Origin: an uncultured Alphaproteobacteria bacterium
GTDB lineage: Bacteria; Pseudomonadota; Alphaproteobacteria; JALCBB01
NCBI GenBank assembly: GCA_958267355.1
Contig: OY279575.1
Coordinates: 229,726-293,725, forward strand
DNA: 64,000 bases
Reading direction: 5' to 3'
Below, piece by piece: positions 49,142-64,000 of the stretch. Under the pieces are notes generated by a model, which saw nothing but the letters and a program-made list of their open reading frames with translations, ran no database searches and was not told the origin of the DNA. The position numbers were made by a program, and so were the translations under genes. Position 1 is the stretch's first letter, and every line of letters starts with the position of its first letter.

Positions 49142-49144
49142 GCT

Positions 49145-50350
49145 ATGGCGGGTTGTGGTTCTGTGGTGTTTATCTGCGACTATCTTCGCACGGCGATTGG
49201 GCGGTTTGGCGGAGCTTTGGCGCAGGTGCGTCCAGATGACTTGGGGGCTGTGCCGCTCAAGGCTTTGATGAGTCGCCACGCGATTGATTGGGCGGAGCTT
49301 GATGATGTGATTTTTGGCTGTGCCAATCAGGCGGGAGAAGACAATCGTAATGTTGCGCGTATGTCGGTTTTGTTGGCGGGTTTGCCAGAAGGGGTTTCGG
49401 CGACGACGGTGAATCGGCTTTGTGGTTCGGGTATGGATGCGGTGTTAATTGCCGCTCGTGCTATTCGGGCGGGAGAAGCTGATTTGATCATTGCGGGCGG
49501 AGTTGAAAGTATGAGTCGTGCGCCTTTTGTGATGCCGAAGGCGGTGCATGCGTTTAGTCGGACGAATGAAGTGCACGATACGACGATTGGCTGGCGGTTT
49601 ATTAATCCGTTGATGCGCGAGCAGTATGGAGTGGACAGTATGCCTGAGACGGCGGAAAACATTGCCGCAGAGTTTAATATCTCGCGGGCTGACCAAGATG
49701 TTTTTGCTTTGGGTTCGCAACAGCGTGTTGCTAAGGCACGGGAGCGTTTGGCACAGGAGATTACAGCGGTAACAATTCCGCAGAGCAAAGGGGAGTCAAT
49801 TGTCTTTGCTGAAGATGAACACCCACGGGAGACCAATTTAGAAAAGCTTGCGGCTTTACCGACTCCGTTTCGTGATACGGGGAGTGTAACGGCGGGCAAT
49901 GCTTCTGGTGTCAATGATGGAGCGGCGGCACTGATTGTTGCGTCTGAGCGGGCGGTGGGGCGGTATGGCTTGACTCCGCTTGCCCGCGTATTGGGTGGAG
50001 CGACAGCGGGGGTAGCTCCACGGATTATGGGTATGGGGCCTGTTCCTGCTTCTGAGAAGTTGCTGGCACGGCTTGGTATGAAGCAAGAAGATTTCGGAAT
50101 GATTGAGCTTAACGAAGCGTTTGCTTCGCAAAGTCTTGCGGTTTTGCGGGGTTTGGGTATTGCTGATGATGATCCGCGGGTAAACCCCAATGGCGGAGCC
50201 ATTGCCTTAGGTCATCCTTTAGGTATGTCGGGGGCTCGCATAACGGGCACGGCGGCTTTAGAGCTTGCAAGCAAAGGCACGCAATACGCCCTAGCCACGA
50301 TGTGCATCGGCGTAGGACAAGGAATCGCCATCGCCCTTGCGTCTGTGTGA
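49145..50350 (+). CDS. pcaF: 3-oxoadipyl-CoA thiolase
   Basis: Cleaves 3-oxoadipyl-CoA to acetyl-CoA and succinyl-CoA, the last step of aromatic breakdown by the beta-ketoadipate route. Motifs: VFGCANQAGEDNRNVARM-like start (here VIFGCANQAGEDNRNVARM), active Cys in NRLCGSGMDAV, GGVESMSRAPFVMPKA, catalytic His in NGGAIALGHPLGMSGAR and second Cys in MCIGVGQGIA. The opening VFICDYLRTAIGRFGGALAQ fits PcaF/PaaJ. 401 residues. No pca regulator or earlier pathway genes are in the window, so PaaJ-type use in phenylacetate breakdown is possible. Confidence 0.88.
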   Translation: MAGCGSVVFICDYLRTAIGRFGGALAQVRPDDLGAVPLKALMSRHAIDWAELDDVIFGCANQAGEDNRNVARMSVLLAGLPEGVSATTVNRLCGSGMDAVLIAARAIRAGEADLIIAGGVESMSRAPFVMPKAVHAFSRTNEVHDTTIGWRFINPLMREQYGVDSMPETAENIAAEFNISRADQDVFALGSQQRVAKARERLAQEITAVTIPQSKGESIVFAEDEHPRETNLEKLAALPTPFRDTGSVTAGNASGVNDGAAALIVASERAVGRYGLTPLARVLGGATAGVAPRIMGMGPVPASEKLLARLGMKQEDFGMIELNEAFASQSLAVLRGLGIADDDPRVNPNGGAIALGHPLGMSGARITGTAALELASKGTQYALATMCIGVGQGIAIALASV

Positions 50351-50365
50351 TACGGGTGCGGACTT

Positions 50366-51526
50366 TCAGTCTTTACGCCACTCTACCTGCGAGAGTTCTG
50401 TAACTGTGGCACAGCCAAGCTGCATCATTACATTGGTTAGCTCGTCGGTTAGGATAGAAACGGTTTGCTTTCCGCCTGTGCGTCCCAGTGCGCCGACTCC
50501 CATCAGGAAAGCCCGCCCGAGCAGAACAAAGTCTGCTCCGACTGCAAGGGCTCGTGCAATATCAAGCCCACTGCGTACACCGCTATCTAGAAAGACTTTT
50601 GTGTCTGCTCCTACGGCGGCTTTAATCTCAGGAAGCACTTCCATCGTCGCAGGAGCTCCATCAAGCTGCCGCCCACCATGGTTAGAAACCTGCACTCCAT
50701 CTACCCCGACAGCGACGGCACGGCTTGCGTCTTCAGGATGTAAAACTCCTTTCAAGACCAGCGCACCTTTCCACAAGGCGCGAATTTCTTCTAAGTAGTC
50801 CCACGACAGCGTGCCGCTCAAATTGTCGTTGGTGAATTGCAACATCTGGCGCATTTGCTGATCGTTAGCGTATTTCTCTAGTACCTTGAAGCGCGGCTGA
50901 CCTGCGAGCAAAGTCTCAAAAGACCACCGCGGACTCCGTGCCAAGTGGTACAAAGTGCGCGGGGTTATTTTTGGCGGCACGGACAATCCTGCTTTGATCT
51001 GTCGCTCACGACGACTCATAATCGGCACATCTGCGGTGACGAGCAAAACTTTAAAGCCTGCATTCCAAGCGCGGTCTAGCAGGTCTTGGCGCATTGTCAG
51101 GTCGCGAGGTGAATAGAGCTGAAACCAGCCCATATCCCCTGTGATCTTGCCCACCACTTCAGGACTTTCCGTGGCGACTGTGCTGAGTCCGTAGGGGATA
51201 CGGCACTGGCTTGCTGTCTGCGCCAAGATCACTTCTGCCTTTGGCCACATCAGGCTGGACAAACCCACAGGCGCAATCCCAAACGGAGCTGCATACTCAG
51301 TACCGAACAGCGTGGTCTGTAAGTTGGGCGTGAGCTTTCCCTTTAGAAACTTGGGCGTGAGGGTAATTTGCTGAAAAGCGGAGCGATTGCGAGCCAAGCA
51401 TTCTTCGGCGGCGGTTCCGCTATCTAGGTATTCCCATGCGAAGTGCGGCATCCGCCGCCGCGCCTGTGCCTTTAAGTCGGATATAGAAAGAAGATGCTTT
51501 TTCAACGAAAAGTGTCCTTCCATCAA
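50366..51526 (-). CDS. FMN-dependent alpha-hydroxyacid dehydrogenase (LldD family)
   Basis: Oxidises an L-2-hydroxyacid with FMN. Family marks: FAWEYLDSGTAAEECLARN, APVGLSSLMWPKAEVILA, GWFQLYSPRD, LLVTADVPIMSRRERQIKAG, VLKGVLHPEDA, the catalytic His in VQVSNHGGRQLDGAPA, and FMN-phosphate binding DSGVRSGLDIARALAVGADFVLLGRAF. 386 residues. Its start overlaps the GntR gene stop (ATGA), so both form one minus-strand unit. Substrate is unknown; context suggests a sugar acid. Confidence 0.92.
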   Translation of the reverse strand: MMEGHFSLKKHLLSISDLKAQARRRMPHFAWEYLDSGTAAEECLARNRSAFQQITLTPKFLKGKLTPNLQTTLFGTEYAAPFGIAPVGLSSLMWPKAEVILAQTASQCRIPYGLSTVATESPEVVGKITGDMGWFQLYSPRDLTMRQDLLDRAWNAGFKVLLVTADVPIMSRRERQIKAGLSVPPKITPRTLYHLARSPRWSFETLLAGQPRFKVLEKYANDQQMRQMLQFTNDNLSGTLSWDYLEEIRALWKGALVLKGVLHPEDASRAVAVGVDGVQVSNHGGRQLDGAPATMEVLPEIKAAVGADTKVFLDSGVRSGLDIARALAVGADFVLLGRAFLMGVGALGRTGGKQTVSILTDELTNVMMQLGCATVTELSQVEWRKD

Positions 51527-52176
51527 AGTGCGTCTAGGGTGTGTTGTAGGCCTTTTTCTATGTGCGAGCGCAGGATGGTAGACGCTCTTTCAACGTCGCG
51601 TTCTAGAGCGGCTTCAAAGACTTGTTGGTGTTCGCCGCTGGCTTCTTCTCCGCGGTAGGTTAGGACGAGCATTTGGTAGCGTAGGTATTTGTCGTACAGC
51701 ACGGAGTGCAACGACAGAAGATTTTTTGAGCCGCAAGCCGATATCAGGGCGAGATGGAATTCCCAATCGTAGCGTTTCCAGACTTCTTTTTGGCTTTCGT
51801 CTCCTGCAAGGAGCTTTTGCTCCATCAGGTGGAGCTTGTGGTGGGCGGCGACTAAGTTTCCTTCCCAGTCGGTGTCGCCGTTTTGGACTGACAGGCGCAG
51901 GGCGTGGCACTCCAGCAGGACGCGCAAATTTGCGACTTCAATTAGGTCAGAGTTTGAGACGGGAGTGACGAAAAATCCGCGTTGATCTTTGGCGTCTACG
52001 AAGCCTTCGCTGGCGAGTCGGTTTAGGGTTTCGCGCAAGGTGGACATACTTGCCGCATAGCGGGTGCGTAATCCGTCTAGCTTGAGCTTGGAGCCTGGGG
52101 CAAGGGCTCCGAAGATGATATCGCGCTTGATTTTCTGGTAGGTGGAAGCTCCGACCAGGTTGCGGGAAGTCGCCAT
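51523..52176 (-). CDS. GntR-family (FCD/FadR-type) transcription regulator
   Basis: N-terminal winged helix: TYQKIKRDIIFGALAPGSKLKLDGL and STLRETLNRLASEGFVDAKDQRGFFV; C-terminal FCD ligand domain with RVLLECHALRLSV and WEFHLALISACGSKNLLSLH with metal-binding-type histidines. I used the ATG at 52176; an in-frame TTG at 52248 would add 24 atypical residues. It is divergent from the first Gfo/Idh gene, and probably controls the cluster. Symmetric sites at 52236, 53654 and 61407 are candidate operators. Confidence 0.88.
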   Translation of the reverse strand: MATSRNLVGASTYQKIKRDIIFGALAPGSKLKLDGLRTRYAASMSTLRETLNRLASEGFVDAKDQRGFFVTPVSNSDLIEVANLRVLLECHALRLSVQNGDTDWEGNLVAAHHKLHLMEQKLLAGDESQKEVWKRYDWEFHLALISACGSKNLLSLHSVLYDKYLRYQMLVLTYRGEEASGEHQQVFEAALERDVERASTILRSHIEKGLQHTLDAL

Positions 52177-52235
52177 AAATTTCTGTCTGATTTTTGCTGT
52201 TTCTGTGCGGGTGTGGAGAAAACTAGTCGGAATAT

Positions 52236-52261
52236 GATATTTTTTCAATCAGAAAAATATC
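52236..52261. promoter_or_regulatory. Candidate operator between gntR and the first Gfo/Idh gene
   Basis: GATATTTTT (52236-52244) and AAAAATATC (52253-52261) are perfect inverted arms with 8 bases between. Followed by TGATAAAG. Lies 60 bases upstream of the gntR start. Confidence 0.55.
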
Positions 52262-52317
52262 TGATAAAGAATAATTCGTCATATACAATTGGAATCTCTA
52301 ATAAATTGCTGATACAG

Positions 52318-52389
52318 TGCCTTCAAGGTGTTTATTGCCTTCAAGGTGTTTGGTGCCTTCAAGGTGTTTGGTGCCTTCAAGGTGCTTGC
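52318..52389. repeat. Four 18-bp repeats upstream of the first Gfo/Idh gene
   Basis: GTGCCTTCAAGGTGTTTG occurs four times in tandem with one or two changes. It is a leader or spacer; the open frame through it is not family-like. Confidence 0.92.
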
Positions 52390-52487
52390 AGGGGGCTAGC
52401 GGAGTGCTTGTGCGGTGCGTCAAGCACCCAGCACAAAGCTCCAGCACGGGGAGAGAAAAGTTCTACGGAAATTCTGGGGGAATTCCT

Positions 52488-53591
52488 ATGTCGGCAGATA
52501 CCCGCATTGCGGTGGTGGGTTTTGGATTGATTGGCAGGCGGCATGCTGAAGTGATACGGGGTAATCCTGCGCTTGTGCTTGCCGCCATCGTGGAGACGGA
52601 GCCAGAAGCCCAGCAGGCGGCACGGGAGTTTTCCGTGCCTGTCTATGCCGACTTGGCGGAGATGATCGCCGAGCAAGACCCAGACGGAGTCGTCATTGCC
52701 ACGCCGACGCCGATGCATTTGGCACAGGGCTTGACTTGTATTGAGGCGAAGAAGCCGACTCTGATTGAGAAGCCGATAACGGTAGCGTCAAAAGATGCGC
52801 AGAAGCTCACGGAAGCGGCTCGGCTGGCGAGTGTTCCGTTGTTGATAGGGCATCACCGCCGCCATAACGGAATGGTTAAAGCCGCTCGCGCAGCCATTGA
52901 AAGCGGAGTCATCGGCACGGTTCGGGCTGTGCAGGCGACTTGTTGGTTTTATAAGCCTGATGGGTATTTTGCTGTTGCTCCGTGGCGCACCCGCAAGGGA
53001 GCGGGACCGATTTCGGTCAATCTGGTCCACGATGTAGATCTGCTACGGCACTTCTGCGGAGAAGTTGTGAGCGTCCAAGCCGTAGCTGTGCCTTCACAGC
53101 GGGGATTTGAAAACGAAGACCTAGCCACGGCAATCTTATGCTTTGCCTCGGGAGCCATTGCCAACATTAGCGTTTCCGATAGCATTGTTGCTCCGTGGAG
53201 CTGGGAGCTAACTTCGCGGGAAAATCCTGCGTATCCTGCCACCAGCGAGAGTTGCTACTTAATCGGTGGGTCTAAAGGCGGCTTATCCCTGCCTGACCTG
53301 AAAGTCTGGACTCACGACACATTAGATTGGTGGACTCCCATTTCTGCCCGCTCTTTGACCTGTAGTATGCGCGACCCGCTTGTCACCCAAATGGAACACT
53401 TCGCCCGTGTTATCGCCCGAGAAGAAGCTCCGTTCATTTCAGGGATGGACGGGCTACGCTCGCTGGAAGTGGTGGAAGCTGTGGCTCTATCTTCTTCCAC
53501 GGGGCGTGAAATTCTGATGGAAGACTTGCCAGAAGCCGAATCTGGCAGTTCCAAAGGGGCTGACAAGCCGCCTTTGGCGGTTTCTGCCTAA
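52488..53591 (+). CDS. Gfo/Idh/MocA-family oxidoreductase (1)
   Basis: NAD(P)-dependent sugar or inositol dehydrogenase type. Rossmann start IAVVGFGLIGRRHAEVI, VIATPTPMHL, EKPIT with the conserved Lys, and the C-terminal fold with GPISVNLVHDVDLLRHFCGEV carrying the catalytic His. ATG at 52488 with TGGGGGAA upstream; 367 residues. Heads the plus-strand catabolic cluster. A low-complexity ending (ESGSSKGADK) is present. Substrate unknown. Confidence 0.9.
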   Translation: MSADTRIAVVGFGLIGRRHAEVIRGNPALVLAAIVETEPEAQQAAREFSVPVYADLAEMIAEQDPDGVVIATPTPMHLAQGLTCIEAKKPTLIEKPITVASKDAQKLTEAARLASVPLLIGHHRRHNGMVKAARAAIESGVIGTVRAVQATCWFYKPDGYFAVAPWRTRKGAGPISVNLVHDVDLLRHFCGEVVSVQAVAVPSQRGFENEDLATAILCFASGAIANISVSDSIVAPWSWELTSRENPAYPATSESCYLIGGSKGGLSLPDLKVWTHDTLDWWTPISARSLTCSMRDPLVTQMEHFARVIAREEAPFISGMDGLRSLEVVEAVALSSSTGREILMEDLPEAESGSSKGADKPPLAVSA

Positions 53592-53715
53592 TTTATCTGA
53601 TTTAAATAAAAATTTCTGATGATTTTGAAAATATCTTGCAAATTATATTCTTGGCGATAGTATAGTATCGCTAGTTCAAGCAAACCTAAACATTCAATCC
53701 ACGGGGAGGAATTCC
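53592..53715. promoter_or_regulatory. Promoter region of the TRAP transporter genes
   Basis: AT-rich. TATAGT at 53661-53666 fits a -10 box, with TTGCAA at 53636 as a weak -35 (19-bp spacer). GCGATA GTATAG TATCGC (53654-53671) is an inverted repeat over the -10, and ATTTTGAAAAT at 53622-53632 is another. GGGGAGGA at 53702 is the ribosome site of dctP. Confidence 0.55.
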
Positions 53716-54732
53716 ATGTTGAAACGTACACGCCGTGTGGCTCTAGGAGCCATACTTACAATTGCCGCTCTTGCTGTTGCTGTGAGCTTTGTGTCTCCGA
53801 GCCTTGCCCAGAGCAAACTTAATTTCACTCTGGCGACTTCGGGTTCAGAAACCGACCAGCGTTCGGTGGCGATGCGCGAAGTCTTTGCGCCGATGGTGGC
53901 AGGCTTTGCCGATTACCAGCCTGGCTATAACGGCACGCTGTTTGCCCAAGGCACAGAGCTGGAAGCCATCAGCCGCGGAAACTTAACTATGTCAATTGCT
54001 TCAGCCCAAGAGCTGGCGCAGTTCTTCCCTGAGTTTTCGGTTTTTGGTGGTGGTTATGTTCACCAAGATGCGGCACACCAGGTGCGAGTCTTCAATGACC
54101 CGCTTATGGATCCGTTCAAAAAGAAAGTGGAAGACGAGCTGGGTATCAAGTTGCTGTCGGTTATGTATCTTGGCAGACGGCATGTGAATTTGCGTTTCCC
54201 CCGCTCTGAGCGTGATGTGCAGACTCCAGCGGACTTGGCGGGTGTGAACCTGCGTATGCCCGGCACAGACGCTTGGCAGTTCTTGGGCAAAGCCCTTGGA
54301 GCTTCGCCTACACCTATGGCCTTCAGTGAAGTCTATACCGCGCTTTCCACAGGAGCCGTTGACGGGCAGGACAATCCATTGCCGACAGTGGTTGATGCGA
54401 AGTTCTATGAAGTCACCAAGCAGATTGCGCTTACATCGCACTTGGTTGACCTCAACTACATCGCTTTCTCCAAGGAAGTGTGGGACAGCCTGACCTCCGA
54501 CCAACAGCTGACCGTACAACGCGCCGCAGACGCGGCGGCGGCGTATGGGCGGCTGAAACAGCTGGACAAAGAAAACAGCTTGGCGGACTTTATCCGCAGT
54601 CAAGGCGTGGAGATCTACACGCCTGACCTAGATGCTTTCCGCACCCATGTGCAGGCAGAGTTCATCAACAGTGAATTTGCCTCTGATTGGCCTGCGGGTG
54701 TGCTGGACAAGATCAACGCACTTGGCAATTAA
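53716..54732 (+). CDS. TRAP transporter solute-binding protein DctP
   Basis: Periplasmic ligand-binding subunit with signal peptide (VALGAILTIAALAVAVSFVSPSLAQ). The family pattern is seen in LAGVNLRMPGTDAWQFLGKALGASPTPMAFSEVYTALSTGAVDGQDNPLP, where Arg in LRMP binds a carboxylate in known DctP proteins. This points to an acidic substrate. 338 residues, normal. Followed by dctQ and dctM. The stop codon is in the first unit of a GGCAATTAAGTA repeat. Confidence 0.94.
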   Translation: MLKRTRRVALGAILTIAALAVAVSFVSPSLAQSKLNFTLATSGSETDQRSVAMREVFAPMVAGFADYQPGYNGTLFAQGTELEAISRGNLTMSIASAQELAQFFPEFSVFGGGYVHQDAAHQVRVFNDPLMDPFKKKVEDELGIKLLSVMYLGRRHVNLRFPRSERDVQTPADLAGVNLRMPGTDAWQFLGKALGASPTPMAFSEVYTALSTGAVDGQDNPLPTVVDAKFYEVTKQIALTSHLVDLNYIAFSKEVWDSLTSDQQLTVQRAADAAAAYGRLKQLDKENSLADFIRSQGVEIYTPDLDAFRTHVQAEFINSEFASDWPAGVLDKINALGN

Positions 54733-54815
54733 GTAGGCAATTAAGTTAAGTAGGCAATTAAGCTGGCAATTAATTTGGCGATTAAGTTAGCGATTAAGCT
54801 GGCAGGTCAGCGTTG
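54724..54815. repeat. Post-stop repeat after dctP
   Basis: GGCAATTAAG(TA/CT)-type units recur six times, the first including the dctP stop. They match the last codons of the gene (Gly-Asn-stop). Confidence 0.88.
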
Positions 54816-54880
54816 TAGCGTTTAGCCACTGCCAAGCAAGCTGCTAAGCGACAAGCCAAGCGAATCGTTCGGCGCACTTT

Positions 54881-54925
54881 TGCCAAATCTTGATTTGCCA
54901 AACATTGATTTGCCAAATGTTGATT
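54881..54925. repeat. Three 15-bp repeats before dctQ
   Basis: TGCCAAATCTTGATT, three tandem copies with two changes, in the dctP-dctQ gap. Confidence 0.9.
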
Positions 54926-54975
54926 TGATGGCTCTAGGGGCAGGAAAGTCCGTTTTGTGAGATAATCGCAGAGCT

Positions 54976-55569
54976 ATGGCTTTCCTGCCCCCCATCGTGC
55001 AGACAACTGCCCACAAAGCTTTGAAGTGGCTTACCCACGCCGCTGAGTTTATAGCCGCCACTTTGTTGGCGGCTATGTTTTTAACTTTCCTGTTGCAAAT
55101 CTTCTCGCGTTATTTACTGCAGACTCCCTTCGGTTGGACTCTTGAGCTTTGTCTAATCCTGTGGGTGTGGATTGTCTTCTTCAGCTGTGCCTTTCTGGTA
55201 CGCGAAAAAGACCATGTCACCTTTGATATTCTGTACCTTGCGACACCCCGTAGGGTGCGACAGGTCTTGGCGTTAATTATTTGTGCTGCACTGGTTATCG
55301 GTATGGCTTGGGGATTCCTGCCGACTTGGGATTACATAGACTGGATGAAGCTCCGCAACACGACAACAGTAAAAAATCCCTTTAGCGGAGAAAAAATTCC
55401 TATGCGGACAATTTTCTCCATCTATGCAGTTTTTATGGTGATGGTAATTGTGCGCTATAGCCTGCTGTTCATCCAAGTGGCTCTTAAAGGCCCGCCCGAT
55501 GAAGCCCATCAGCTTGTGGAGCATAACCCGAAGCCTCCCGCCATACAGCAAGGAAAAGAAGTCGTATGA
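54976..55569 (+). CDS. TRAP transporter small membrane subunit DctQ
   Basis: Four membrane segments with the family stretch FSRYLLQTPFGWTLELCLILWVWIVFFSCAFLVREKDHVTFDIL. 197 residues, ATG at 54976. The end overlaps dctM by four bases (ATGA). Confidence 0.92.
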   Translation: MAFLPPIVQTTAHKALKWLTHAAEFIAATLLAAMFLTFLLQIFSRYLLQTPFGWTLELCLILWVWIVFFSCAFLVREKDHVTFDILYLATPRRVRQVLALIICAALVIGMAWGFLPTWDYIDWMKLRNTTTVKNPFSGEKIPMRTIFSIYAVFMVMVIVRYSLLFIQVALKGPPDEAHQLVEHNPKPPAIQQGKEVV

Positions 55570-56861
55570 GTCTAGAACTCACGCTCTTCTTAATCGCATT
55601 GTTTGGCTTGGCGGGTATTGGCACACCTGTTGGCTACTCCATTATGCTTGCCTCCATGATTTACCTCGGAGTCGGCGGGCAGGATATCGCCCTAACAGGA
55701 GAAAAAATCTTACAAGGCTTATACAAAAGCTTCATCTTGCTGGCGGTACCGCTGTTTATCACCGCCGCCAACATTATGAATGCAGGTACGATATCCGATA
55801 GACTTCTGCACTTCTGTATTGCCGTCGTTGGAAGATTCCGTGGCGGCTTGGGCTATGTCAATGTTATGGCATCGCTGATCTTCTCAGGAATGTCAGGTTC
55901 CGCTGTCGCAGACGCCGCAGGGATTGGCAAGATCATCATCGGGATGATGACCAAAGATGGCAGATACGACCGCGGCTACGCCGCCGCCATCACTGCCGCG
56001 TCCGCCACCATTGGCCCGATTATTCCGCCGTCTATTCCGATGGTGATGTACGCTTTGGTGTCAAATGCTTCCATTGGCTCGCTCTTCTTGGCAGGTATCG
56101 TACCAGGACTGCTTATGGGTGCTGTCTTAATGGCGATGAACTTCATGATCTCACGGCGGCGGGACTTCGCTACCGAAGAACCCGTACCCCTGCGTAGGCT
56201 TCCGAGCGTTACGGGGAAGGCTTTCCCCGCCCTGCTTATGCCTGTAATCCTGCTCTACGGTATCTACGGCGGAGTCACCACACCCACCGAAGCCGCCGCT
56301 GTTGCCGCTTTCTATGCACTCCTGCTGGCGACACTGTTCTATCGCGCCCTTACGCCCAAAAGCCTATATAAAATCTTCGTAGAAAGTGCGCGGTCTTCCG
56401 CCGCTGTTGGTGTGGTTATCGGCGGGGCTTTAATTCTCAACTATATCGTCTTGTCAGAAAATATTCCTGCAACTATGTCTGCCGCTTTGACGGGGCTAGA
56501 GATTCATCCGATTATCTTTTTGCTCGGAGTCAATCTTCTAGTACTTCTGCTTGGCTGTGTATTAGATGCAACGACAATTATTCTGGTGATTGTCCCGCTG
56601 TTTATCCCTACCTGCCAAGCCCTTGGAATTGACCTTGTGCATTTCGGAGTCCTTGTTGTAGTCAATTCTATGATCGGGCTAATCACACCCCCCTACGGAG
56701 TCTTGCTCTTCGTCATTAACGCAGTGACAGGAATTCCGCTCAAAGAAATTATTCGCGAAGTCTGGGCATTCCTTGCGGTTTTGCTTTGCGCTTTGCTTGC
56801 ACTGATCTTCCTCCCTGATATGGTGCTGTGGCTACCACGACTCTTCGGCTACCAAGGATAA
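55566..56861 (+). CDS. TRAP transporter large membrane subunit DctM
   Basis: The 431-residue protein has about twelve membrane segments with the DctM motifs GIGTPVGYSIMLASMIYL, ANIMNAGTISDRLLHF, NVMASLIFSGMSGSAVADAAGIG, IGPIIPPSIPMVMYAL and the C-terminal NSMIGLITPPYGVLLFV. It forms the Na+-coupled channel with DctQ. Complete P-Q-M set in this cluster. Confidence 0.95.
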   Translation: MSLELTLFLIALFGLAGIGTPVGYSIMLASMIYLGVGGQDIALTGEKILQGLYKSFILLAVPLFITAANIMNAGTISDRLLHFCIAVVGRFRGGLGYVNVMASLIFSGMSGSAVADAAGIGKIIIGMMTKDGRYDRGYAAAITAASATIGPIIPPSIPMVMYALVSNASIGSLFLAGIVPGLLMGAVLMAMNFMISRRRDFATEEPVPLRRLPSVTGKAFPALLMPVILLYGIYGGVTTPTEAAAVAAFYALLLATLFYRALTPKSLYKIFVESARSSAAVGVVIGGALILNYIVLSENIPATMSAALTGLEIHPIIFLLGVNLLVLLLGCVLDATTIILVIVPLFIPTCQALGIDLVHFGVLVVVNSMIGLITPPYGVLLFVINAVTGIPLKEIIREVWAFLAVLLCALLALIFLPDMVLWLPRLFGYQG

Positions 56862-56907
56862 GCCAGCCACAAGTCCGCCCCTGATTAACGAAGCAATTGA
56901 CACAGCA

Positions 56908-57051
56908 CCTGACAAAGCGATTAACGCAGCACCCGACGAAGTAACTGACACAGTACCTGACAAAGCGATTAACGCAGTACCCGACGAAGTAACTGACACA
57001 GTACCTGACAAAGCGATTGACACAGTACCTAACGAAGCAACTGACCAAAGC
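56908..57051. repeat. 48-bp tandem repeat upstream of the citryl-CoA lyase-like gene
   Basis: Units start (CCTGACAAAGCGATT) at 56908, 56956 and 57004, exactly 48 bases apart. The last, diverged unit runs into the 5' end of the next gene, whose first codons (AAAGCGATTAACGAAGTGAC) match the unit. TAA occurs in frame in the upstream copies. Confidence 0.92.
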
Positions 57052-57895
57052 GATTAACGAAGTGACCGACCAAACACCAGACGCGCAAGCCATACGCCAC
57101 TGGTGGCGTACCGCCATCATTGATATGCGTCCGGGCTATATCGCCTTCCGTGGCACGCCGATTGAAGAGCTGATTGGCACCGTCAGCTTCGCCCAGATGA
57201 TCTGGCTCATGCTCCGCGGAGACCTACCCACAGCCGACCAAGCCGCACTTTTAGACTGCGCACTCGTGGCAGGGGTAGATCACGGACCACAGGCTCCATC
57301 TATAGCGGCAGCACGCATGACAGCCACCTGCGGAGTCGGACTCAACAATGTAATGGCAACAGGCGTAAATATGCTCGGCAATGTCCATGGCGGAGCAGGC
57401 GAACAAGCCGCCGAGCTATACCTAGACATTGCCAAGCGTCTAAAAGCAGGAGACGATATGAACAAAGCCGTGCCAGAAGCCATCGCCGAATGGCGCAAAA
57501 CCTACGGCAAGATCATCTCAGGCTTTGGCCACCGCTTTCACAAACCCCGTGACCCACGGGCTCCGCGTTTGATGGAGCTGGTACGGCAAGCCGCCAAACA
57601 CGGCACCGTATCAGGACACTTCGCCGATATCGCCGAAGCCATTCAGCAAGAAATCGGCACAGAGCGTAAAGCTCCGATTGCTATGAACATTGATGGAGCC
57701 ACCGCCGTTATCTTCTGCGAACTGGGTTTTGCTCCGCCTTTGTCGCGTGGGCTCTTCTGCCTGTCGCGGTCTGTCGGAATACTCGCCCACGGCTGGGAAC
57801 AGATGCAACAAGGCGGAAGAAACAAAGGGCCAATTCCGCCCAACTATCTGCCCGAATACGAGCCACAAGAGACAAACAAGAAAAGCAAAGGGTAG
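57017..57895 (+). CDS. Citrate synthase-fold protein, citryl-CoA lyase type
   Basis: Short citrate synthase-like protein lacking the small N-terminal domain of TCA enzymes. Residues that match the catalytic set: His in NVHGGAGEQ, His in GFGHRFHKPRDPRA and Asp in NIDGATAVIF. Opening conserved part is AIRHWWRTAIIDMRPGYIAFRGTPIEELIG. 292 residues from TTG 57017; GTG 57062 is an alternative just past the repeat. In such families the reaction is cleavage or formation of a citryl- or malyl-CoA-like thioester. In this catabolic cluster its role is unknown. Confidence 0.82.
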   Translation: MTQYLTKQLTKAINEVTDQTPDAQAIRHWWRTAIIDMRPGYIAFRGTPIEELIGTVSFAQMIWLMLRGDLPTADQAALLDCALVAGVDHGPQAPSIAAARMTATCGVGLNNVMATGVNMLGNVHGGAGEQAAELYLDIAKRLKAGDDMNKAVPEAIAEWRKTYGKIISGFGHRFHKPRDPRAPRLMELVRQAAKHGTVSGHFADIAEAIQQEIGTERKAPIAMNIDGATAVIFCELGFAPPLSRGLFCLSRSVGILAHGWEQMQQGGRNKGPIPPNYLPEYEPQETNKKSKG

Positions 57896-57902
57896 GTCAG
57901 CG

Positions 57903-59057
57903 ATGCATGAGTCCGCAAAACCCTTCCGCGTTGGCATAATCGGCACAGGACGTATCAGCGATATCTACTTTCAAACCTTGAATCAATATCCGCAAGTAGA
58001 AATCGCCGTCTGCGGAAGCCTGAACCTAGACGAAAGCCGTGCCAAAGCCAAAGAGCACAAAATATCCCGAGTTGCAGAACCCGAAGCAATCATCGCTGAC
58101 CCTGAGCTTGATTGCATTCTGAACCTGACAATTCCTGCCGCCCACGCGAGCGTTTCCATGGCGGCGTTAGAAGCAGGAAAGCACATCTATTCAGAAAAGC
58201 CTTTGGTTAGCACTCTTGCCGATGCCCAGCCGCTTTTTGACCTAGCCAAGCGTAAAGGATTAACGATTGGTAATGCTCCTGATACTTTTTTGGGGGGCAG
58301 GTGGCAGACAGTGCGCAAGCTATTAGACGCAAACACCATCGGCAGACCAACAGGATGCACTGCCTTTGTTGGTACCCATGGCACCGAACGCCATGTGGCG
58401 AATCCAGACTTTTATTATCAGCCTGGTGGTGGGCCGATGCTAGACCTTGGCCCCTATTATCTATCGGTGATGGTCTTCTGTATGGGAGCGATCATCCGTG
58501 TTGCGGGTATGTCTAACCGAGCCTTTGACAAACGGCAGATAGAATACGGAAGCCGCACAGGCGAGTGGATTGAAGTAGATACAGATACCCATGTTCAAGG
58601 CATGGTACAGTTCGCAAGTGGAGCCATTGGCTCCATCACTATGAGCTTTGATATCTGGGATAGCGAAACGCCGCGTTTTGAAATCTACGGCACCGAAGGC
58701 ACGATTTGTATTCCTGACCCAGACCCTGTCCACGGAGCCAATATTTTTCAAGGCGAAGTTCTATACCGCACCCGTGAAACTTCACGCTGGACTCACAAGC
58801 CCCGTCCGACAGGGCGTGAGCACTGGCAAGTCGCAACCAACAGCCACGGACTCAACCAAGATAGCCGCGGTATCGGCTTAATCGAAATGGCAGATGCAAT
58901 TGCCAAAAAACGCAAACCCCGTTGCTCGGGCGAGCTGGCGTATCATATCCTAGAGGTGATGATGGGAATTCTGGATAATTCTGGTGGGCAGTTCACCGAA
59001 ATCGTTTCGCGTCCGCCTATTCCTGAGCTTTTGCCTGAGCGGTTTCCTGAATCTTGA
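57903..59057 (+). CDS. Gfo/Idh/MocA-family oxidoreductase (2)
   Basis: Rossmann start VGIIGTGRISDIYFQTL, ILNLTIPAAHASVSMAAL, YSEKPLV with conserved Lys, and GGGPMLDLGPYYLSVM in the C-terminal fold. The usual His is replaced by Tyr or lies nearby in this subfamily (GPYYLS). ATG at 57903; the frame upstream to 57690 overlaps the previous gene and is a shadow. 384 residues. Neighbours suggest sugar oxidation. Confidence 0.9.
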   Translation: MHESAKPFRVGIIGTGRISDIYFQTLNQYPQVEIAVCGSLNLDESRAKAKEHKISRVAEPEAIIADPELDCILNLTIPAAHASVSMAALEAGKHIYSEKPLVSTLADAQPLFDLAKRKGLTIGNAPDTFLGGRWQTVRKLLDANTIGRPTGCTAFVGTHGTERHVANPDFYYQPGGGPMLDLGPYYLSVMVFCMGAIIRVAGMSNRAFDKRQIEYGSRTGEWIEVDTDTHVQGMVQFASGAIGSITMSFDIWDSETPRFEIYGTEGTICIPDPDPVHGANIFQGEVLYRTRETSRWTHKPRPTGREHWQVATNSHGLNQDSRGIGLIEMADAIAKKRKPRCSGELAYHILEVMMGILDNSGGQFTEIVSRPPIPELLPERFPES

Positions 59058-59319
59058 ATCTGAGCCTTAAGGCAAAACCAGAGAGCAAACCCTGCAATCC
59101 GAAACCTGCAACGCAAAGCCTTAACGCCAAGCCCAAGCTATATCCCTAAACCCGCAACCCACAAGCCAAGCCTTAACGCCAAGCCCAAGCTATATCCCTA
59201 AACCCGAACCCCACAAGCCAAGCCTTAACGCCAAGCCCAAGCTATATCCCTAAACCTTAACCCCACAAGCCAAGCCTTAACGCCACACACAACCCGAAAC
59301 CAAAAGCACAAGTACAGCC
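59058..59319. repeat. 52-bp tandem repeat between Gfo/Idh (2) and the small unknown gene
   Basis: Unit start AAGCCTTAACGCC at 59116, 59168, 59220 and 59272: three full 52-bp units and a partial. Copies are near identical (AAGCTATATCCCTAAACC conserved). No gene, no spacers, so not a CRISPR. Confidence 0.95.
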
Positions 59320-60000
59320 ATGCCTAGCCAAACCGTAAATATCGCCGAACCATTCTTCACCTTACGCCTCGTGGAAAATGAATCCAGCCACGCCATCACA
59401 GGCAAGACCATTGCTCTCAACATTGGCGAGTCAGCTATTCGTATCCGCGAGCAATCGCTCAAGCCCATGCAGTCGGTGGTGCTACAGAACACCGAGATGC
59501 ACAACATAGAACACGCCATTCTGGTGGAGCGTTTTGCTGACCATCCAGACGAAGCCGAGTTGCTGGCACAGATACGCAAAACTTGGCCTACCGCCTACGA
59601 AGTGCGCAAAGAAGATAGACTCCGTGGCGTGGAGCACTATATGTCGCCGAAAGTATGGATTGAACAAGTTGGCTTAACCTTCTATCACTCGGCTTCCGTG
59701 CCGTTGAATGTAGGACTCCATCGCGAACATGCCTTTTGCCCTGTGCCAGGCTTCCGCGAAGTCCATACGCAAATTGTCGGCTTCGGCAAGATGCAGCAGT
59801 GCCGCGAGCAGAAGGTAGAAACCCTATACCTTGAAGAGCCTATGGCTCCTGGTATCACCCACAAGCCAATGTACGACGCAGAAGGAAATTATCCGTGGCA
59901 CCAGTTTGAGACCATAACTCCTTCGGTCATACTGGCAGTGGAAATCTTGCCCGAAGGGGCTACGCCACCGCCTGTTCTGACTCATCCGAAAGCGAATTGA
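59320..60000 (+). CDS. Unknown protein, possibly cupin-like
   Basis: 226 residues, ATG at 59320 but no strong ribosome site. I do not recognise the family firmly. Histidine-rich stretches (VPLNVGLHREHAFCPVPGFREVHTQI and PMYDAEGNYPWHQFETITPS) with beta-strand-like spacing suggest a cupin or related metal-binding barrel, and the first half has similar strands (LNIGESAIRIREQSLK). Its place between two Gfo/Idh genes suggests a sugar-acid isomerase or lactonase-like helper, which is inference. Confidence 0.65.
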   Translation: MPSQTVNIAEPFFTLRLVENESSHAITGKTIALNIGESAIRIREQSLKPMQSVVLQNTEMHNIEHAILVERFADHPDEAELLAQIRKTWPTAYEVRKEDRLRGVEHYMSPKVWIEQVGLTFYHSASVPLNVGLHREHAFCPVPGFREVHTQIVGFGKMQQCREQKVETLYLEEPMAPGITHKPMYDAEGNYPWHQFETITPSVILAVEILPEGATPPPVLTHPKAN

Positions 60001-60100
60001 TCACAGCCAGTTAGCCACGGCGAATTGATCACAGCGAATGAGTCATAGCCAGTTAGCCACAGCCAATTAATCACAGCCAGTTAGCCACAGCGAATTTCAA
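60001..60100. repeat. Post-stop repeat after the cupin-like gene
   Basis: Units of AGCCAGTTAGCCACAG and GCGAATTGATCACAGC alternate. The GCGAATTGA that ends the gene, stop included, recurs at about 60020 and, changed, later. Confidence 0.85.
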
Positions 60101-60102
60101 CA

Positions 60103-61299
60103 ATGCTTCTACCCAAAGACTTTACCCGCAACTTTGATTCCGAAGGTGCATTTCCGCGTTTGTCTCGCCGTCTGCGTCTTGGCGTTGTCGGTGGCGGAAG
60201 AATTGCCGCTACCCAAGCTGCGGCAGCTCGTTTATCAAACCACTGGGAAGTCGTAGCAGGGGCTTTTTCTTCTGACCCAGTCCGTGCCAAAGCGGCGGCT
60301 CACGATTGGTTTCTGGACTCCGCGCGTTGCTACGAAAGCTTCGCCGAAATGGCTGAACAAGAAGCTACGCGCCAAGACGGAGTAGATGCCGTAATGATTA
60401 CGACTCCGAACCATCTGCACTTTCCTGCCGCCAAGGCTTTCCTAGAAGCAGGAATTGATATTCTGTGCGACAAGCCACTCACCAACGAAGTTGCGGAAGC
60501 CAAAGCCTTGCTTTCGCTTGTCAAAAGCTCGGGCTGTGTTTTCGGAGTCTCCTATGTGATGTCGTGCTTTCCTGTAATCCGACAGGCGCGTGAAATCGTT
60601 GCCCAAGGAGCTATTGGCACAATCAATCAGATCCACGCTGAGTTCCTGCAAGATTGGATGACTCCCGAATCGGCGGTAGAAGCTCCGCATGTGAAGTGGC
60701 GGCTAGATCCTGCCAAATCGGGCAAGACCAGCTGTGTTGGTGATATTGGCACTCACGCGGCTCACCTAGCGAGTTTTGTCAGCCGCCTGCCCCTGACTCA
60801 TATCCGTGCTGAATTCCACGTCTGTGGAGCTCCCAAGGCGTTAGAAGACACTTTCTTCGCCTGGACACGCCACCAGCAAACTGTGCCTGGCACACTGATG
60901 GCAACACGGCTTGCTCCGGGGAATCGTGGCGGACTTAGACTCCGTATCTACGGAGACCAAGGCGGACTCGCCTGGGACATGGAAAAAGCCGAAGAACTCA
61001 AACTCAGCCGCTACGGCGAACCCGACAGAATCATCACCCGCGGACAAGGGCACGGAATATCTCCACGCCACGAACGGCTTGTGCGAACGGGGCGGGGCTT
61101 TCCTGAAGGAATTCCTGAAGCGTGGGCGAATCTTTACACAGAATTTGCTATGGCGGTGGCGGTTCGTAAAGATGGGCTAACGCTTCCTGACGACTGGCTG
61201 GAGCTGCCCCGCATAGAAGACGGAGTCAAAGGCGTAAGCTTCATCCAAGCCTGTGTGCAGTCCAATCAAGTCGATGGCGACTGGGTAGAAGTAGAATAA
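60103..61299 (+). CDS. Gfo/Idh/MocA-family oxidoreductase (3)
   Basis: Rossmann start RLRLGVVGGGRIAATQAAA, MITTPNHLHF, CDKPLTNEV with conserved Lys, and VGDIGTHAAHLASFV with the catalytic-type His. 398 residues from ATG 60103. The longer C-terminal part with GNRGGLRLRIYGDQGGLAWDME is typical of inositol or glucoside-type dehydrogenases. Its last 20 bases including stop are duplicated directly behind it. Confidence 0.9.
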   Translation: MLLPKDFTRNFDSEGAFPRLSRRLRLGVVGGGRIAATQAAAARLSNHWEVVAGAFSSDPVRAKAAAHDWFLDSARCYESFAEMAEQEATRQDGVDAVMITTPNHLHFPAAKAFLEAGIDILCDKPLTNEVAEAKALLSLVKSSGCVFGVSYVMSCFPVIRQAREIVAQGAIGTINQIHAEFLQDWMTPESAVEAPHVKWRLDPAKSGKTSCVGDIGTHAAHLASFVSRLPLTHIRAEFHVCGAPKALEDTFFAWTRHQQTVPGTLMATRLAPGNRGGLRLRIYGDQGGLAWDMEKAEELKLSRYGEPDRIITRGQGHGISPRHERLVRTGRGFPEGIPEAWANLYTEFAMAVAVRKDGLTLPDDWLELPRIEDGVKGVSFIQACVQSNQVDGDWVEVE

Positions 61300-61330
61300 A
61301 GCCGAAGGCGGTAGAATAAAGCCGAAGGCA
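61291..61330. repeat. Exact 20-bp duplication of the gene end, stop included
   Basis: GTAGAATAAAGCCGAAGGCG at 61291-61310 is repeated at 61311-61330 with one change at the last base. The first copy contains the TAA stop of the gene before it. Confidence 0.95.
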
Positions 61331-61406
61331 AAAGATCTGCTTGGTTTGGTGTGGTGGTGCGATGGGCTAGAGTCCGATACGCTAGGGGCTAGGCAGGGCG
61401 GATAAT

Positions 61407-61441
61407 TGATGATTTACAAATCATCAGATATTATCTATAAT
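61407..61441 (+). promoter_or_regulatory. Strong promoter with overlapping palindromic operator
   Basis: TTTACA (61413-61418), 17 bases, TATAAT (61436-61441). The perfect arms TGATGATTT and AAATCATCA (61407-61415, 61418-61426) overlap the -35, so a repressor bound there would block it. A second, TTATCT/AGATAA, surrounds the -10. The best guess is the GntR regulator at 51523. Confidence 0.75.
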
Positions 61442-61514
61442 ATAAGATAATGACTTCCTGCCGATAATAACTGCTCCAGCCACAGCAAGAGAGGAAAACC
61501 CCCAGGCGGACACA

Positions 61515-62420
61515 ATGTCAGACAGCAAGAAGCAAGAGCCTGCAGCTCCCCTGTATTCTCTGGCGCATTTGACCCTTATCAACTGCACGCCAGCTGAACT
61601 TGTCTATATTGCGGCACGGGCGGGATATGACGCGATAAGTCCGCGTTTGATTCAGATGTATATTGCCAATGAGTTTAAGCCAGCTCCGTTGGACAAGGTG
61701 CAGTTGCAGGCGACGAAAGCTGCGCTTGCCAGCACGGGGCTTAAAGTTCAAGAGATAGAAATTGCCAACATCACGGAAGACTGCAATCCGCGTGACTTTG
61801 AACCCGCACTAGAAGTCGGAGCAGAACTCGGTGCAAAGCACTTGGTTACTTCCGCTTGGACAAAACCCCCCAATGACCGAAACTTTATCCTTGATGTATA
61901 CGGCGCGACTTGTGACTTAGCCGCCACCTACGGACTCACTGTAGATTTAGAATTTCCTAGCTTTTCGCGTTTGCCTACCTTGAGCGAAGCCTTAGATATT
62001 GTGCGTGCGGTTGATAAGCCGAATAGTGGTATTTTGATTGATACGCTGTATATCCATTTAAGCCGCATTGATCTGGACGAAATCCTGCCCATCCCACAGG
62101 AGTGGTTGCACACCTTGCAGATTGCTGATTGTCTGCCTACGACCATTGACTCCCATGCGGGAATGATTCAACTGGCTCGTGATGCGCGACTTTATACGGG
62201 TGAGGGCTGTATAGACTTCGCGGGAATTATTGAACGCTGTCCGCCGATGCACTACGCAATTGAGCTACCAAACCAGAGTCGCATTGCTGAGCTGGGCTAT
62301 GAAGAACATGCGCGGCGTTGTTTAATCCACGCCAAGCGCACTTTCGGAGCCATTCGCTCCAAACGCCCTGCCAAACGCGATGAACGCGGTGAGAGTAGCC
62401 TACAAGCCCCTGCCGCCTAA
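61515..62420 (+). CDS. Sugar phosphate isomerase/epimerase-like TIM barrel
   Basis: Xylose isomerase-like TIM barrel. LAHLTLINCTPAELVYIAARAGYDAISPRLI opens strand one; LTVDLEFPSFSRLPTLSEALDIVRAVDKPNSGILIDTLY has the metal Glu and Asp; TLQIADCLP and GEGCIDFAGIIE, then YAIELPNQSRI follow the usual pattern. 301 residues from ATG 61515. A basic, repeat-free tail follows residue 280. Expected to isomerise or epimerise the sugar handled by the neighbouring dehydrogenases. Confidence 0.88.
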   Translation: MSDSKKQEPAAPLYSLAHLTLINCTPAELVYIAARAGYDAISPRLIQMYIANEFKPAPLDKVQLQATKAALASTGLKVQEIEIANITEDCNPRDFEPALEVGAELGAKHLVTSAWTKPPNDRNFILDVYGATCDLAATYGLTVDLEFPSFSRLPTLSEALDIVRAVDKPNSGILIDTLYIHLSRIDLDEILPIPQEWLHTLQIADCLPTTIDSHAGMIQLARDARLYTGEGCIDFAGIIERCPPMHYAIELPNQSRIAELGYEEHARRCLIHAKRTFGAIRSKRPAKRDERGESSLQAPAA

Positions 62421-62766
62421 ACTTCCATAGAGACCCCATAAGCCCCGCCCATAGCCCCTACAGCCCACAGACAAGCCCACAAGCCTACAAACCCACCACA
62501 CGAGCTTAGAAGCCCCGCCCATAGCCCCTACACCCCACAGACAAGCCCACAAGCCTATACACCCACCACACAAGCCTAGAAGCCCCTAGCCCCTAGCCCC
62601 ATAGCCCTTACACTCCACAGACAAGCCCACAAGCCTATACACCCACCACACGAGCCTAGAAGCCCCTAGCCCCTAGCCCCATAGCCTTTACAGCCCACAG
62701 ACAAGCCCACAAGCCTACAAACCCACCACACAAGCCTAGAAGCCCACAGGAAACAGCGAGCCCACA
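62421..62766. repeat. 70-80-bp tandem repeat array before the aldehyde dehydrogenase
   Basis: The core CACAGACAAGCCCACAAGCC begins at 62466, 62536, 62616 and 62696, i.e. spacings of 70, 80 and 80 bases; the longer units add CTAGCCCCTAG. About 346 bp without a gene. Not a CRISPR: units have no unique spacers. Confidence 0.92.
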
Positions 62767-64000
62767 ATGGCAGAAGAAGCAAAACCACTCCGCGCACTAC
62801 GAGACGATGAGCGACAGCTCGCCGATACCCTGCTGACCCAAGCCCAAACGGCAATGGCACAGATTGAAAACTGGAGCCAGCAAGACCTAGACAGACTCGC
62901 CCAAGCCATCGGCTGGTATGCGGGTAACGAAAGCACTTTCACCAAGCTTGCACAACAAGGTGTAGACGAAAGCGGTATCGGTGACCGTGCAGGCAGACCT
63001 GGCAAGCGGTTTAAGATTCATATGGTTTTGCGCGATGCACTGCGACAGAAATCTACGGGGATTGTAGAAACAGACGAAGCCAAAGGATTAGTAAAATACG
63101 CCAAGCCCGCAGGTGTAATTGCTTCGTTGATTCCTATGACCAATCCTGCGCTGACTCCGCCTGTTACGGGGATTTATTCTGCTAAGGCGCGCAATGCGAT
63201 TATCTTTTGTCCGCATCCGCGCACGGCGCAGACGACTCGTGCAATGGTGGAAGTCATGCGCTCTGCTTGTCGGGCAGTTGGTGCACCCGAAGATTTGTTT
63301 CAGTGTGTGGTGAAGCCTTCTATTCCTCTGACTAAGTACCTAATGGCGCAGGCTGACCTAACCCTTGCCACGGGAGGCAAGCCCATGGTGCAGGCGGCTT
63401 ATTCATCGGGCAAGCCTGCTTATGGGGTAGGGGCGGGTAATTCTTCTATTGTGATAGACGAAACGGCTGATATAGAAATTGCTGCTGCCAATACCCGTAT
63501 GTCAAAAACTTCGGATTTTGGCTCGGGCTGTTCTGCTGATGGGAATATTATTATTCAGCGTTCCATTTACGACAAGATGGTAGCGGCTCTGGTGCGCGAA
63601 GGTGGATATCTATGCAACGATGCAGAAAAAGCTCTATTAGAAAAAGCCATGTGGGATGAAAATGGCAATCGTACTTTTCCGACGATTGCTTGTCGTCCAC
63701 AACAGACTGCGGAAGTGGCGGGCTTTACCATTCCTGAAGACTGCAAGTTTTTGATGGTAGAAAACCAAGGACAAATCGGCAAAGCGCATAAGTTTTCTAA
63801 AGAAAAGCTCACCACGCTAATGGCGCTGTATCACTTTGACACCTTTGACGATGCGCTTGCTATGGTGCGGGCGATTTATGAAACAGGAGGCAAAGGGCAT
63901 TCCTGTGGTATCTATAGCCACGATGATGAGCGTATAGATGCGCTTGCTCGTGTGGCTCCTGTGAGTCGTATGATGGTGCGTCAGCCGCAATCTAAAGCCA
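62767..64000 (+). CDS. Acylating aldehyde dehydrogenase (SauS-like), 3' end cut by window
   Basis: CoA-acylating aldehyde dehydrogenases turn an aldehyde into an acyl-CoA or the reverse. Translation from ATG 62767 gives 411 residues without a stop before the edge. The catalytic Cys lies in SDFGSGCSADGN, with VIASLIPMTNPALTPP, IIFCPHPRTAQTT, GVGAGNSSIVID and GGKGHSCGIYSHDDERI, closest in my judgement to sulfoacetaldehyde (acylating) dehydrogenases such as SauS. Whether the substrate is a sulfonate or an ordinary sugar-derived aldehyde cannot be decided here. It is the last gene seen of the catabolic cluster. Confidence 0.85.
   Translation, partial: MAEEAKPLRALRDDERQLADTLLTQAQTAMAQIENWSQQDLDRLAQAIGWYAGNESTFTKLAQQGVDESGIGDRAGRPGKRFKIHMVLRDALRQKSTGIVETDEAKGLVKYAKPAGVIASLIPMTNPALTPPVTGIYSAKARNAIIFCPHPRTAQTTRAMVEVMRSACRAVGAPEDLFQCVVKPSIPLTKYLMAQADLTLATGGKPMVQAAYSSGKPAYGVGAGNSSIVIDETADIEIAAANTRMSKTSDFGSGCSADGNIIIQRSIYDKMVAALVREGGYLCNDAEKALLEKAMWDENGNRTFPTIACRPQQTAEVAGFTIPEDCKFLMVENQGQIGKAHKFSKEKLTTLMALYHFDTFDDALAMVRAIYETGGKGHSCGIYSHDDERIDALARVAPVSRMMVRQPQSKA

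Follow-up and report, generated by a model that had tools for sequence, protein, structure and literature searches.

Which compound does a bacterium degrade with a gene cluster that combines a citryl-coenzyme A (CoA) lyase-like protein with a CoA-acylating aldehyde dehydrogenase resembling SauS? Such a cluster lies at the end of the 64,000-nucleotide stretch analysed here (the window; G000:C1:229726-293725), part of a 1.86-Mb single-contig genome that is alphaproteobacterial by its kinship to Rhodobacteraceae-like hits. A first-pass annotation of the window had listed as one undescribed cluster an FMN-dependent hydroxyacid dehydrogenase, a GntR regulator, three Gfo/Idh dehydrogenases (Gfo1 to Gfo3), a TRAP (tripartite ATP-independent periplasmic) transporter, a citrate synthase-fold protein (CCL), a cupin-like protein (Cup), a TIM-barrel protein (TIM) and the SauS-like enzyme. 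By open reading frames (ORFs) and Pfam/NCBIfam profiles, we confirmed the cluster and found every listed gene, each in the family stated. The cluster extends from the GntR gene to a gene for a thiamine diphosphate (ThDP)-dependent enzyme just beyond the window. From the gene set, its conserved order, the family assignments and the intact catalytic residues we infer the chemistry of the unit, which we tentatively read as an operon that degrades quinate-type hydroaromatic acids of plants and algae and dispenses with aromatisation.

The CCL protein was used as the query against 85k species genomes, and 80 loci were obtained. Twenty-six of them also hold SauS-like and ThDP genes, 23 of these with at least 6.9 kb of upstream sequence; counts such as 23/23 thus refer to loci picked by CCL similarity and SauS/ThDP presence, which are not phylogenetically independent. 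TIM and CCL were present in 26/26 loci holding the SauS-like and ThDP genes, and all four genes occurred together in 23/23 relatives with sufficient flank. The relatives are mostly marine Alphaproteobacteria, and isolates carrying the cluster include Boseongicola aestuarii CECT 8489, Cognatishimia activa CECT 5113 and Nioella. Among the 23, a QuiC-like gene was found in 22, an AroE-like gene in 8 and the Gfo2-Cup-Gfo3 module in 9-11 (see Table 1 for the regulator, Gfo1 and DctP). The conserved order is GntR (opposite strand), Gfo1, DctPQM, QuiC-like, (AroE-like), CCL, (Gfo2, Cup, Gfo3), TIM, SauS, ThDP, with optional genes in parentheses; the minimal set of Gfo1, TRAP, QuiC-like, CCL, TIM, SauS and ThDP is one of the two commonest. 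The ThDP enzyme was encoded in 19 of 298 sampled genomes of one alphaproteobacterial family, and the SauS-like gene adjoined it in 19/19. Co-occurrence of the core genes in 23/23 relatives and this invariable adjacency argue that the clustering is not due to chance.

The genes travel together, rather than belonging to separately regulated known pathways. The first-pass interpretation is partly supported, and its notion of one catabolic unit, lying in none of the pathways found here, is upheld. The FMN dehydrogenase has to be taken off the original list: it has no counterpart at any of about 85 related loci, is specific to the window genome among these and was therefore excluded from the unit. 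At the opposite end, the ThDP gene starts within the stop codon of the SauS-like gene (ATGA), indicating that the operon ends with the ThDP enzyme. The unit is patchy, as a second genome of the window's own family had no close SauS; among 78 genomes sampled from another class, none held a close ThDP enzyme.

Enzyme replacements and core chemistry

The catalytic residues of the core enzymes are conserved. The SauS-like protein retains its catalytic cysteine, C255, in 53/53 aligned homologues. The ThDP enzyme has three ThDP domains (PF02775, PF02776 and PF00205), with the catalytic glutamate E65 and the GDG motif (G476-D477-G478) present in 54/54 aligned sequences. In CCL, which exceeds the cut-off of the citryl-CoA lyase model (Table 1), the catalytic H124, H172 and D226 and the carboxylate-binding R181, R251 and R268 are invariant in relatives. 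The metal site of TIM is formed by E146 (39/39), D176 (38/39), H or Q202 (37/39) and E250 (36/39), the remainder being gaps. The TRAP transporter is complete.

The first-pass annotation had considered a sulfonated sugar, degraded by SauS and Xsc chemistry. SauS (NF047625) is indeed the best NCBIfam model for the whole dehydrogenase, and Xsc (TIGR03457) is one of many models matching the ThDP enzyme, but both scores are far under the curated equivalog cut-offs (423.8 bits against 600; 282.3 bits against 676.4). Next to the cluster, neither the window nor its SauS-type relatives showed a recognisable gene for Pta, a sulfite exporter or a sulfite dehydrogenase, and CCL would be left unexplained. 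Sulfonate degradation is therefore highly improbable. Past position 64,000, where the first-pass annotation had advised looking for xsc, pta or aldolase genes, the ThDP enzyme does belong to the Xsc superfamily, but pta was not seen and there is no conserved aldolase.

We inferred the pathway logic from REPLACEMENTS (enzymes swapped in loci L112/L113, L087 and L114/L115). In L112 and L113, from Streptomyces NBC_01450 and Nonomuraea (Actinobacteria), an ordinary aldehyde dehydrogenase (ALDH) gene followed by the ThDP gene lies opposite a CCL-CaiB pair, with ALDH and the CaiB CoA-transferase in place of SauS; the region also encodes a PQQ (pyrroloquinoline quinone)-type dehydrogenase, an ABC transporter of the branched-chain type and an AroE-like protein, and in L113 a QuiC-like protein. 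Azoarcus KH32C (L087) shows the order AroD-AroE-ThDP-CCL-CaiB, and separate AP_endonuc_2 and HPPD-like proteins represent a split QuiC. The divergent loci L114 (8010-14909) and L115 (5763-12662) contain an HMGL-TIM-SauS-ThDP-QuiC operon, in which HMGL, a 3-hydroxy-3-methylglutaryl-CoA (HMG-CoA) lyase, scores over its family cut-off; no CCL was found in these two loci, and HMGL is a non-orthologous replacement for it. CaiB and SauS are mutually exclusive: 36 CCL loci with CaiB are devoid of SauS and of a close ThDP gene. The CCL and CaiB pairs in L088 and L062-L086 (with TctABC also in L088) look like a means by which aerobes use citrate through citryl-CoA.

Taken together, the enzyme swaps and the exclusion of SauS by CaiB are most simply read as the conversion of an aldehyde to a CoA thioester, which is split into acetyl-CoA and a keto compound. 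The ThDP enzyme would yield the aldehyde; SauS, or ALDH with the CoA-transferase, would give its CoA thioester; and CCL or HMGL would split the resulting 3-hydroxy-3-substituted acyl-CoA. It is quite probable that C-C cleavage to an aldehyde, formation of such an acyl-CoA and release of acetyl-CoA constitute the core of the unit. This agrees with the earlier outline, in which a carboxylate is taken up by TRAP, oxidised, acted on by the TIM barrel and split at a C-C bond to an aldehyde that becomes an acyl-CoA. We propose that CCL releases acetyl-CoA from a thioester of the homocitryl-CoA or citryl-CoA type.

If the thioester were citryl-CoA itself, the precursor could be a 2-oxo acid such as 4-carboxy-4-hydroxy-2-oxoadipate, which the ThDP enzyme would decarboxylate; SauS would then form citryl-CoA, and CCL would release acetyl-CoA and oxaloacetate. 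Such a scheme accords with the match of CCL to the citryl-CoA lyase model and its likeness to CCLs beside Tct/CaiB, with acetolactate synthases as the nearest relatives of the ThDP enzyme, and with the match of Gfo1 to PmdC among solved structures. However, the conserved unit has no 4,5-cleavage ring dioxygenase, TIM is left without a step, and the AroE-like and dehydroquinase genes beside the core in relatives are unexplained, which makes a 2-oxo acid a rather unlikely substrate.

Candidate substrate and route

Quinate/shikimate dehydrogenases related to AroE (382 bits, with the model cut-off at 235) are encoded as AroE-like proteins in 9/26 SauS/ThDP loci and also in L087 and L113. Dehydroquinases stand beside the core as type I in L087 (AroD) and as type II in L048, where two dehydroquinase-like genes follow the ThDP gene, and QuiC-like genes are present in 25/26 SauS/ThDP loci. 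The recurrence of these genes beside the core points to hydroaromatic acids, and a quinate/shikimate-type acid has, in our estimate, slightly better than an even chance of being the substrate. The window unit has no AroE-like gene, and no QuiC-like protein was found in the window genome (no match at E 0.001); the hydroaromatic link therefore comes from the orthologous units. The same neighbours speak against a plain sugar acid, the other substrate that had been suggested, although a sugar acid such as 3-deoxy-D-manno-octulosonic acid (KDO) is possible as the ligand of the transporter.

In SauS-type clusters with CCL, the metal ligands that a dehydratase carries in its N-terminal barrel are gone from the QuiC-like proteins (as a rule through E134 to I/L, D165 to N and E239 to A), and the HPPD (4-hydroxyphenylpyruvate dioxygenase)-like 2-His-Glu site is intact in every QuiC-like protein covering that region. 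In L113 and L114, the metal ligands and the HPPD-like site are all intact. In dehydroshikimate dehydratases, the Glu/Asp/Glu set binds the metal, and the C-terminal domain is possibly structural (PMC9324987). Given the lost ligands, the dehydratase role may have passed to TIM. Among the QuiC homologues with two domains, an entire clade (L007-L118) is without the dehydratase metal site and has kept the HPPD-like iron site; for this clade, the label 3-dehydroshikimate dehydratase would be wrong.

TIM is the sole PF01261 (AP_endonuc_2) protein of the window genome and is weakly similar to IolI and QuiC. One may suppose that it is a plain 3-dehydroshikimate dehydratase feeding protocatechuate to pcaGH and the neighbouring pcaIJF, with ThDP-SauS-CCL serving something else: no other AP_endonuc_2 protein is at hand, and the genome has intradiol dioxygenase genes (C1:129246-130435) as well as pcaIJF (window 47754-50350), the latter just upstream of the cluster and about 150 kb from the former. 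TIM, however, is tied to SauS-ThDP-CCL in all 23 long-flank relatives and scores 29 bits with the QuiC model against a required 1200, so we consider this improbable.

The transporter provides a further clue. The fold of DctP was predicted with orthologs (single-sequence prediction gave a pLDDT, the predicted local distance difference test score, of 36). Its ortholog and closest solved relative is RD1_0742 of Roseobacter denitrificans (PDB 4pf6; 515 bits; fold match with 74% identity), a structure reportedly deposited with bound KDO; papers on TRAP transporters in the open literature made no mention of 4PF6. The next fold relatives (SiaP) bind sialic acids, cyclic acids whose C(OH)(COO-)-CH2 unit is also present in quinate. 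Both likenesses would suit KDO or another 3-deoxy-2-ulosonic acid, compounds plentiful in algal walls and lipopolysaccharide, as the true substrate. But a KDO aldolase alone would do for such a compound, the tertiary alcohol required by CCL/HMGL chemistry is absent from ulosonic acids in open-chain form, and the AroE-like and dehydroquinase neighbours would have no explanation; like the protocatechuate scheme, this is improbable.

Quinate has the structure that CCL chemistry requires: its C1(OH)(COO-) is flanked by two CH2 groups, as in the citryl pattern, whereas shikimate acquires this pattern only after hydration by dehydroquinase. In the route that we tentatively favour, DctPQM would import the ring hydroxy-acid and Gfo1 would oxidise quinate to 3-dehydroquinate (in relatives also an AroE-like enzyme, and in Actinobacteria a PQQ-type dehydrogenase); shikimate could enter through a dehydroquinase (AroQ/AroD) hydrating 3-dehydroshikimate. 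TIM would remove the C5 hydroxyl to give 1-hydroxy-3,4-dioxocyclohexane-1-carboxylate, as IolE acts on inosose and QuiC on dehydroshikimate. The ThDP enzyme would hydrolyse the C3-C4 bond, as do IolD and cyclohexane-1,2-dione hydrolase, giving homocitrate semialdehyde, which the SauS-like enzyme would convert with NAD+ and CoA to homocitryl-CoA. CCL would cleave this into acetyl-CoA and 2-oxoglutarate. Each core enzyme would thus perform one step, and all seven carbons would reach central metabolism with none lost and no oxygen used. We rate this conversion of quinate to acetyl-CoA and 2-oxoglutarate, by way of 3-dehydroquinate, the 3,4-dione, ring hydrolysis and homocitryl-CoA, as a real possibility short of an even chance.

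Several observations weigh against the quinate route. No residue discriminates between CCLs beside SauS and those beside CaiB/Tct, which are likely citrate users, so a homocitryl preference is unsupported. TIM belongs to no IolE or QuiC family over cut-off, and at E 0.001 it did not match IolE at all. The Gfo2-Cup-Gfo3 module has no step, and the model gives no role to the QuiC-like protein, which is nearly universal in relatives but has lost its dehydratase metal site there. An AroE-like quinate/shikimate dehydrogenase is missing from the window unit and from most SauS-type loci; the window genome has one AroE, and the AroQ genes in L020, L029 and L060, which are read from the opposite strand, may be housekeeping genes. 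The intradiol dioxygenase genes and pcaIJF imply that protocatechuate use coexists in this genome. Finally, a DapA-like aldolase gene follows the ThDP gene in L016 and an HpaI-like one in L118, both superfluous when 2-oxoglutarate is the product.

These aldolases would find a place if, with the same substrate class and core logic, the ThDP enzyme performed a retro-acyloin cleavage of an alpha-hydroxyketone rather than splitting a 1,2-dione, TIM acted as an isomerase and CCL released acetyl-CoA and a 4-hydroxy-2-oxo C5 acid, which an aldolase would split into pyruvate and a C2 compound. Benzaldehyde lyase and 2-hydroxyacyl-CoA lyase, of the same ThDP superfamily, catalyse retro-acyloin cleavage, and the weak likeness of TIM to the isomerase IolI points the same way. 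A conserved downstream aldolase was sought across the loci, however, and none was found; as no downstream gene of any kind is common to them, the aldolase lies outside the core. Moreover, an aldehyde C5 fragment would release glyoxal. We regard the retro-acyloin variant as unlikely. Returning to the quinate route, we give its full form the same chance, short of even: a complete, O2-independent and non-aromatising pathway for quinate (and shikimate after hydration), in which a 3-dehydroquinate 4,5-dehydratase and a homocitryl-CoA lyase would both be new activities, distributed with modular replacement over marine Alphaproteobacteria, SAR324, Azoarcus and Actinobacteria.

Gene boundaries and flanking sequence

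The genes are listed in Table 1. Cup matched no Pfam or NCBIfam family in profile searches. The SauS-like gene stops past the window edge, at the window-equivalent position 64197 (L005:2423). The ORFs opening at 52317 and 57017 extend at their 5' ends into tandem repeats, and the true starts are further downstream, that of CCL within or right after the repeat at 56888-57045. The FMN dehydrogenase and GntR genes overlap by 4 bp.

Table 1. Genes of the cluster and its borders (window positions unless stated; relatives are the 23 long-flank loci)
Gene	Product	Position	Strand	Family or match	Relatives
FMN_dh	FMN-dependent hydroxyacid dehydrogenase	50366-51526	-		
GntR	GntR/FCD-family regulator, divergent from catabolic genes	51523-52248	-	PF00392 + PF07729	beside cluster in 22/23
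Gfo1	Gfo/Idh dehydrogenase	52488-53591	+	PF01408	21/23
DctP	TRAP solute-binding protein	53716-54732	+	PF03480; RD1_0742 (PDB 4pf6) ortholog	21/23
DctQ	small TRAP membrane subunit	54976-55569	+	PF04290	
DctM	large TRAP membrane subunit	55566-56861	+	PF06808	
CCL	citryl-CoA-lyase family, citrate-synthase fold	~57017-57895	+	NF004864, 430 bits, cut-off 261	
Gfo2	Gfo/Idh dehydrogenase, optional module	57903-59057	+	PF01408	11/23
Cup	226 aa, invariant His, cupin-like pattern, optional module	59320-60000	+	ortholog alignment	
Gfo3	Gfo/Idh dehydrogenase, optional module	60103-61299	+	PF01408	10/23
TIM	metal-dependent TIM barrel, AP_endonuc_2	61515-62420	+	PF01261	23/23
SauS-like	CoA-acylating aldehyde dehydrogenase	62767-64000, cut by window edge	+	NF047625, 424 bits, cut-off 600	
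ThDP enzyme	607 aa, wholly outside window	genome C1:293919-295742 = L005:2420-4243			

Most inter-gene gaps of the cluster carry their own tandem repeat, with a different unit in each (units of 18, 12/17, 15, 48, 52, 42, 20 and 80 bp; gaps at 52317-52388, 54722-54927, 56888-57045, 59116-59285, 59991-60096, 61291-61329 and 62440-62745). In relatives, a number of them have almost closed.

Downstream of the ThDP gene, a GcvT/DmdA-like gene lies on the opposite strand; next come a gene that matched no family, one resembling photolyase genes and the division/wall genes. The GcvT/DmdA-like protein (L005:4268-5482) scored 191 bits, under the cut-off of 410 for dimethylsulfoniopropionate (DMSP) demethylase, and in L048 and L118 the cluster has a distant homologue of it on the upstream side. 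A role of this neighbour in mycosporine/gadusol catabolism was weighed and dropped, as no locus ties the gene reliably to the core.

Relation to known pathways

In agreement with the first-pass description of an undescribed set, no published pathway with these genes was found in the open literature searched. No paper contained 'homocitryl-CoA', none combined 'citryl-CoA lyase' with 'quinate', and searches there for hydroaromatics, mycosporines and the use of quinate by anaerobes yielded nothing relevant. Bacterial use of quinate and shikimate has been described as proceeding via protocatechuate, with O2 needed for ring cleavage. Decades ago, hydroaromatics were reported to be degraded by anaerobic isolates with no aromatic intermediates; we know of no genes for such a process. 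The cluster offers a concrete, testable gene set for a non-aromatising route in common marine bacteria.

The protocatechuate pathway (QuiA/QuiB/AroE-like, QuiC, pca) shares AroE-like, dehydroquinase and QuiC-like genes with relatives of the cluster, but in SauS-type clusters the QuiC-like proteins mostly lack their metal ligands, the window genome has no such protein, and steps by a ThDP enzyme, through an acyl-CoA and by a lyase are foreign to that pathway. The sulfoacetaldehyde pathway (SauS, Xsc, Pta) uses a dehydrogenase and a ThDP enzyme of the same superfamilies; the cluster enzymes both fall below the equivalog cut-offs, and no Pta was seen. Modules of CCL and CaiB (in Ruegeria AD91A with TctABC; in Cupriavidus) contain an orthologous CCL with 61-69% identity and the same catalytic residues. 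They differ in forming the thioester from an acid by CoA-transferase, whereas the cluster would form it from an aldehyde by SauS, and in having no close ThDP enzyme. Cyclohexane-1,2-dione hydrolase of Azoarcus 22Lin resembles the ThDP enzyme in the proposed reaction type, ThDP-dependent hydrolysis of a cyclic dione, and was not among the PDB matches of the latter at E 1e-50.

In architecture, the proposed route follows myo-inositol catabolism (IolG-IolE-IolD-IolA), which likewise combines a Gfo/Idh dehydrogenase, an AP_endonuc_2 TIM barrel, ThDP-dependent ring cleavage and an acyl-CoA-forming aldehyde dehydrogenase. The individual enzymes are distinct: Gfo1 scored 140 bits with the IolG model (TIGR04380), below its cut-off of 355, TIM is set apart by the lack of an IolE match, and the ThDP enzyme is acetolactate-synthase-like. 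In addition, the cluster has no IolC kinase and no IolJ aldolase and ends in a lyase of the citryl-CoA type. The best 25 of the 53 matches of the ThDP enzyme did not include the IolD model. If the quinate route is true, many citryl-CoA lyase, SauS-like and acetolactate-synthase-like annotations would have to be reassigned, and the dehydrogenase, TIM-barrel dehydratase and ThDP ring-hydrolase module of inositol would have a second biological use. We view the unit as a variant of known catabolic architectures that has a fair chance of constituting a new pathway.

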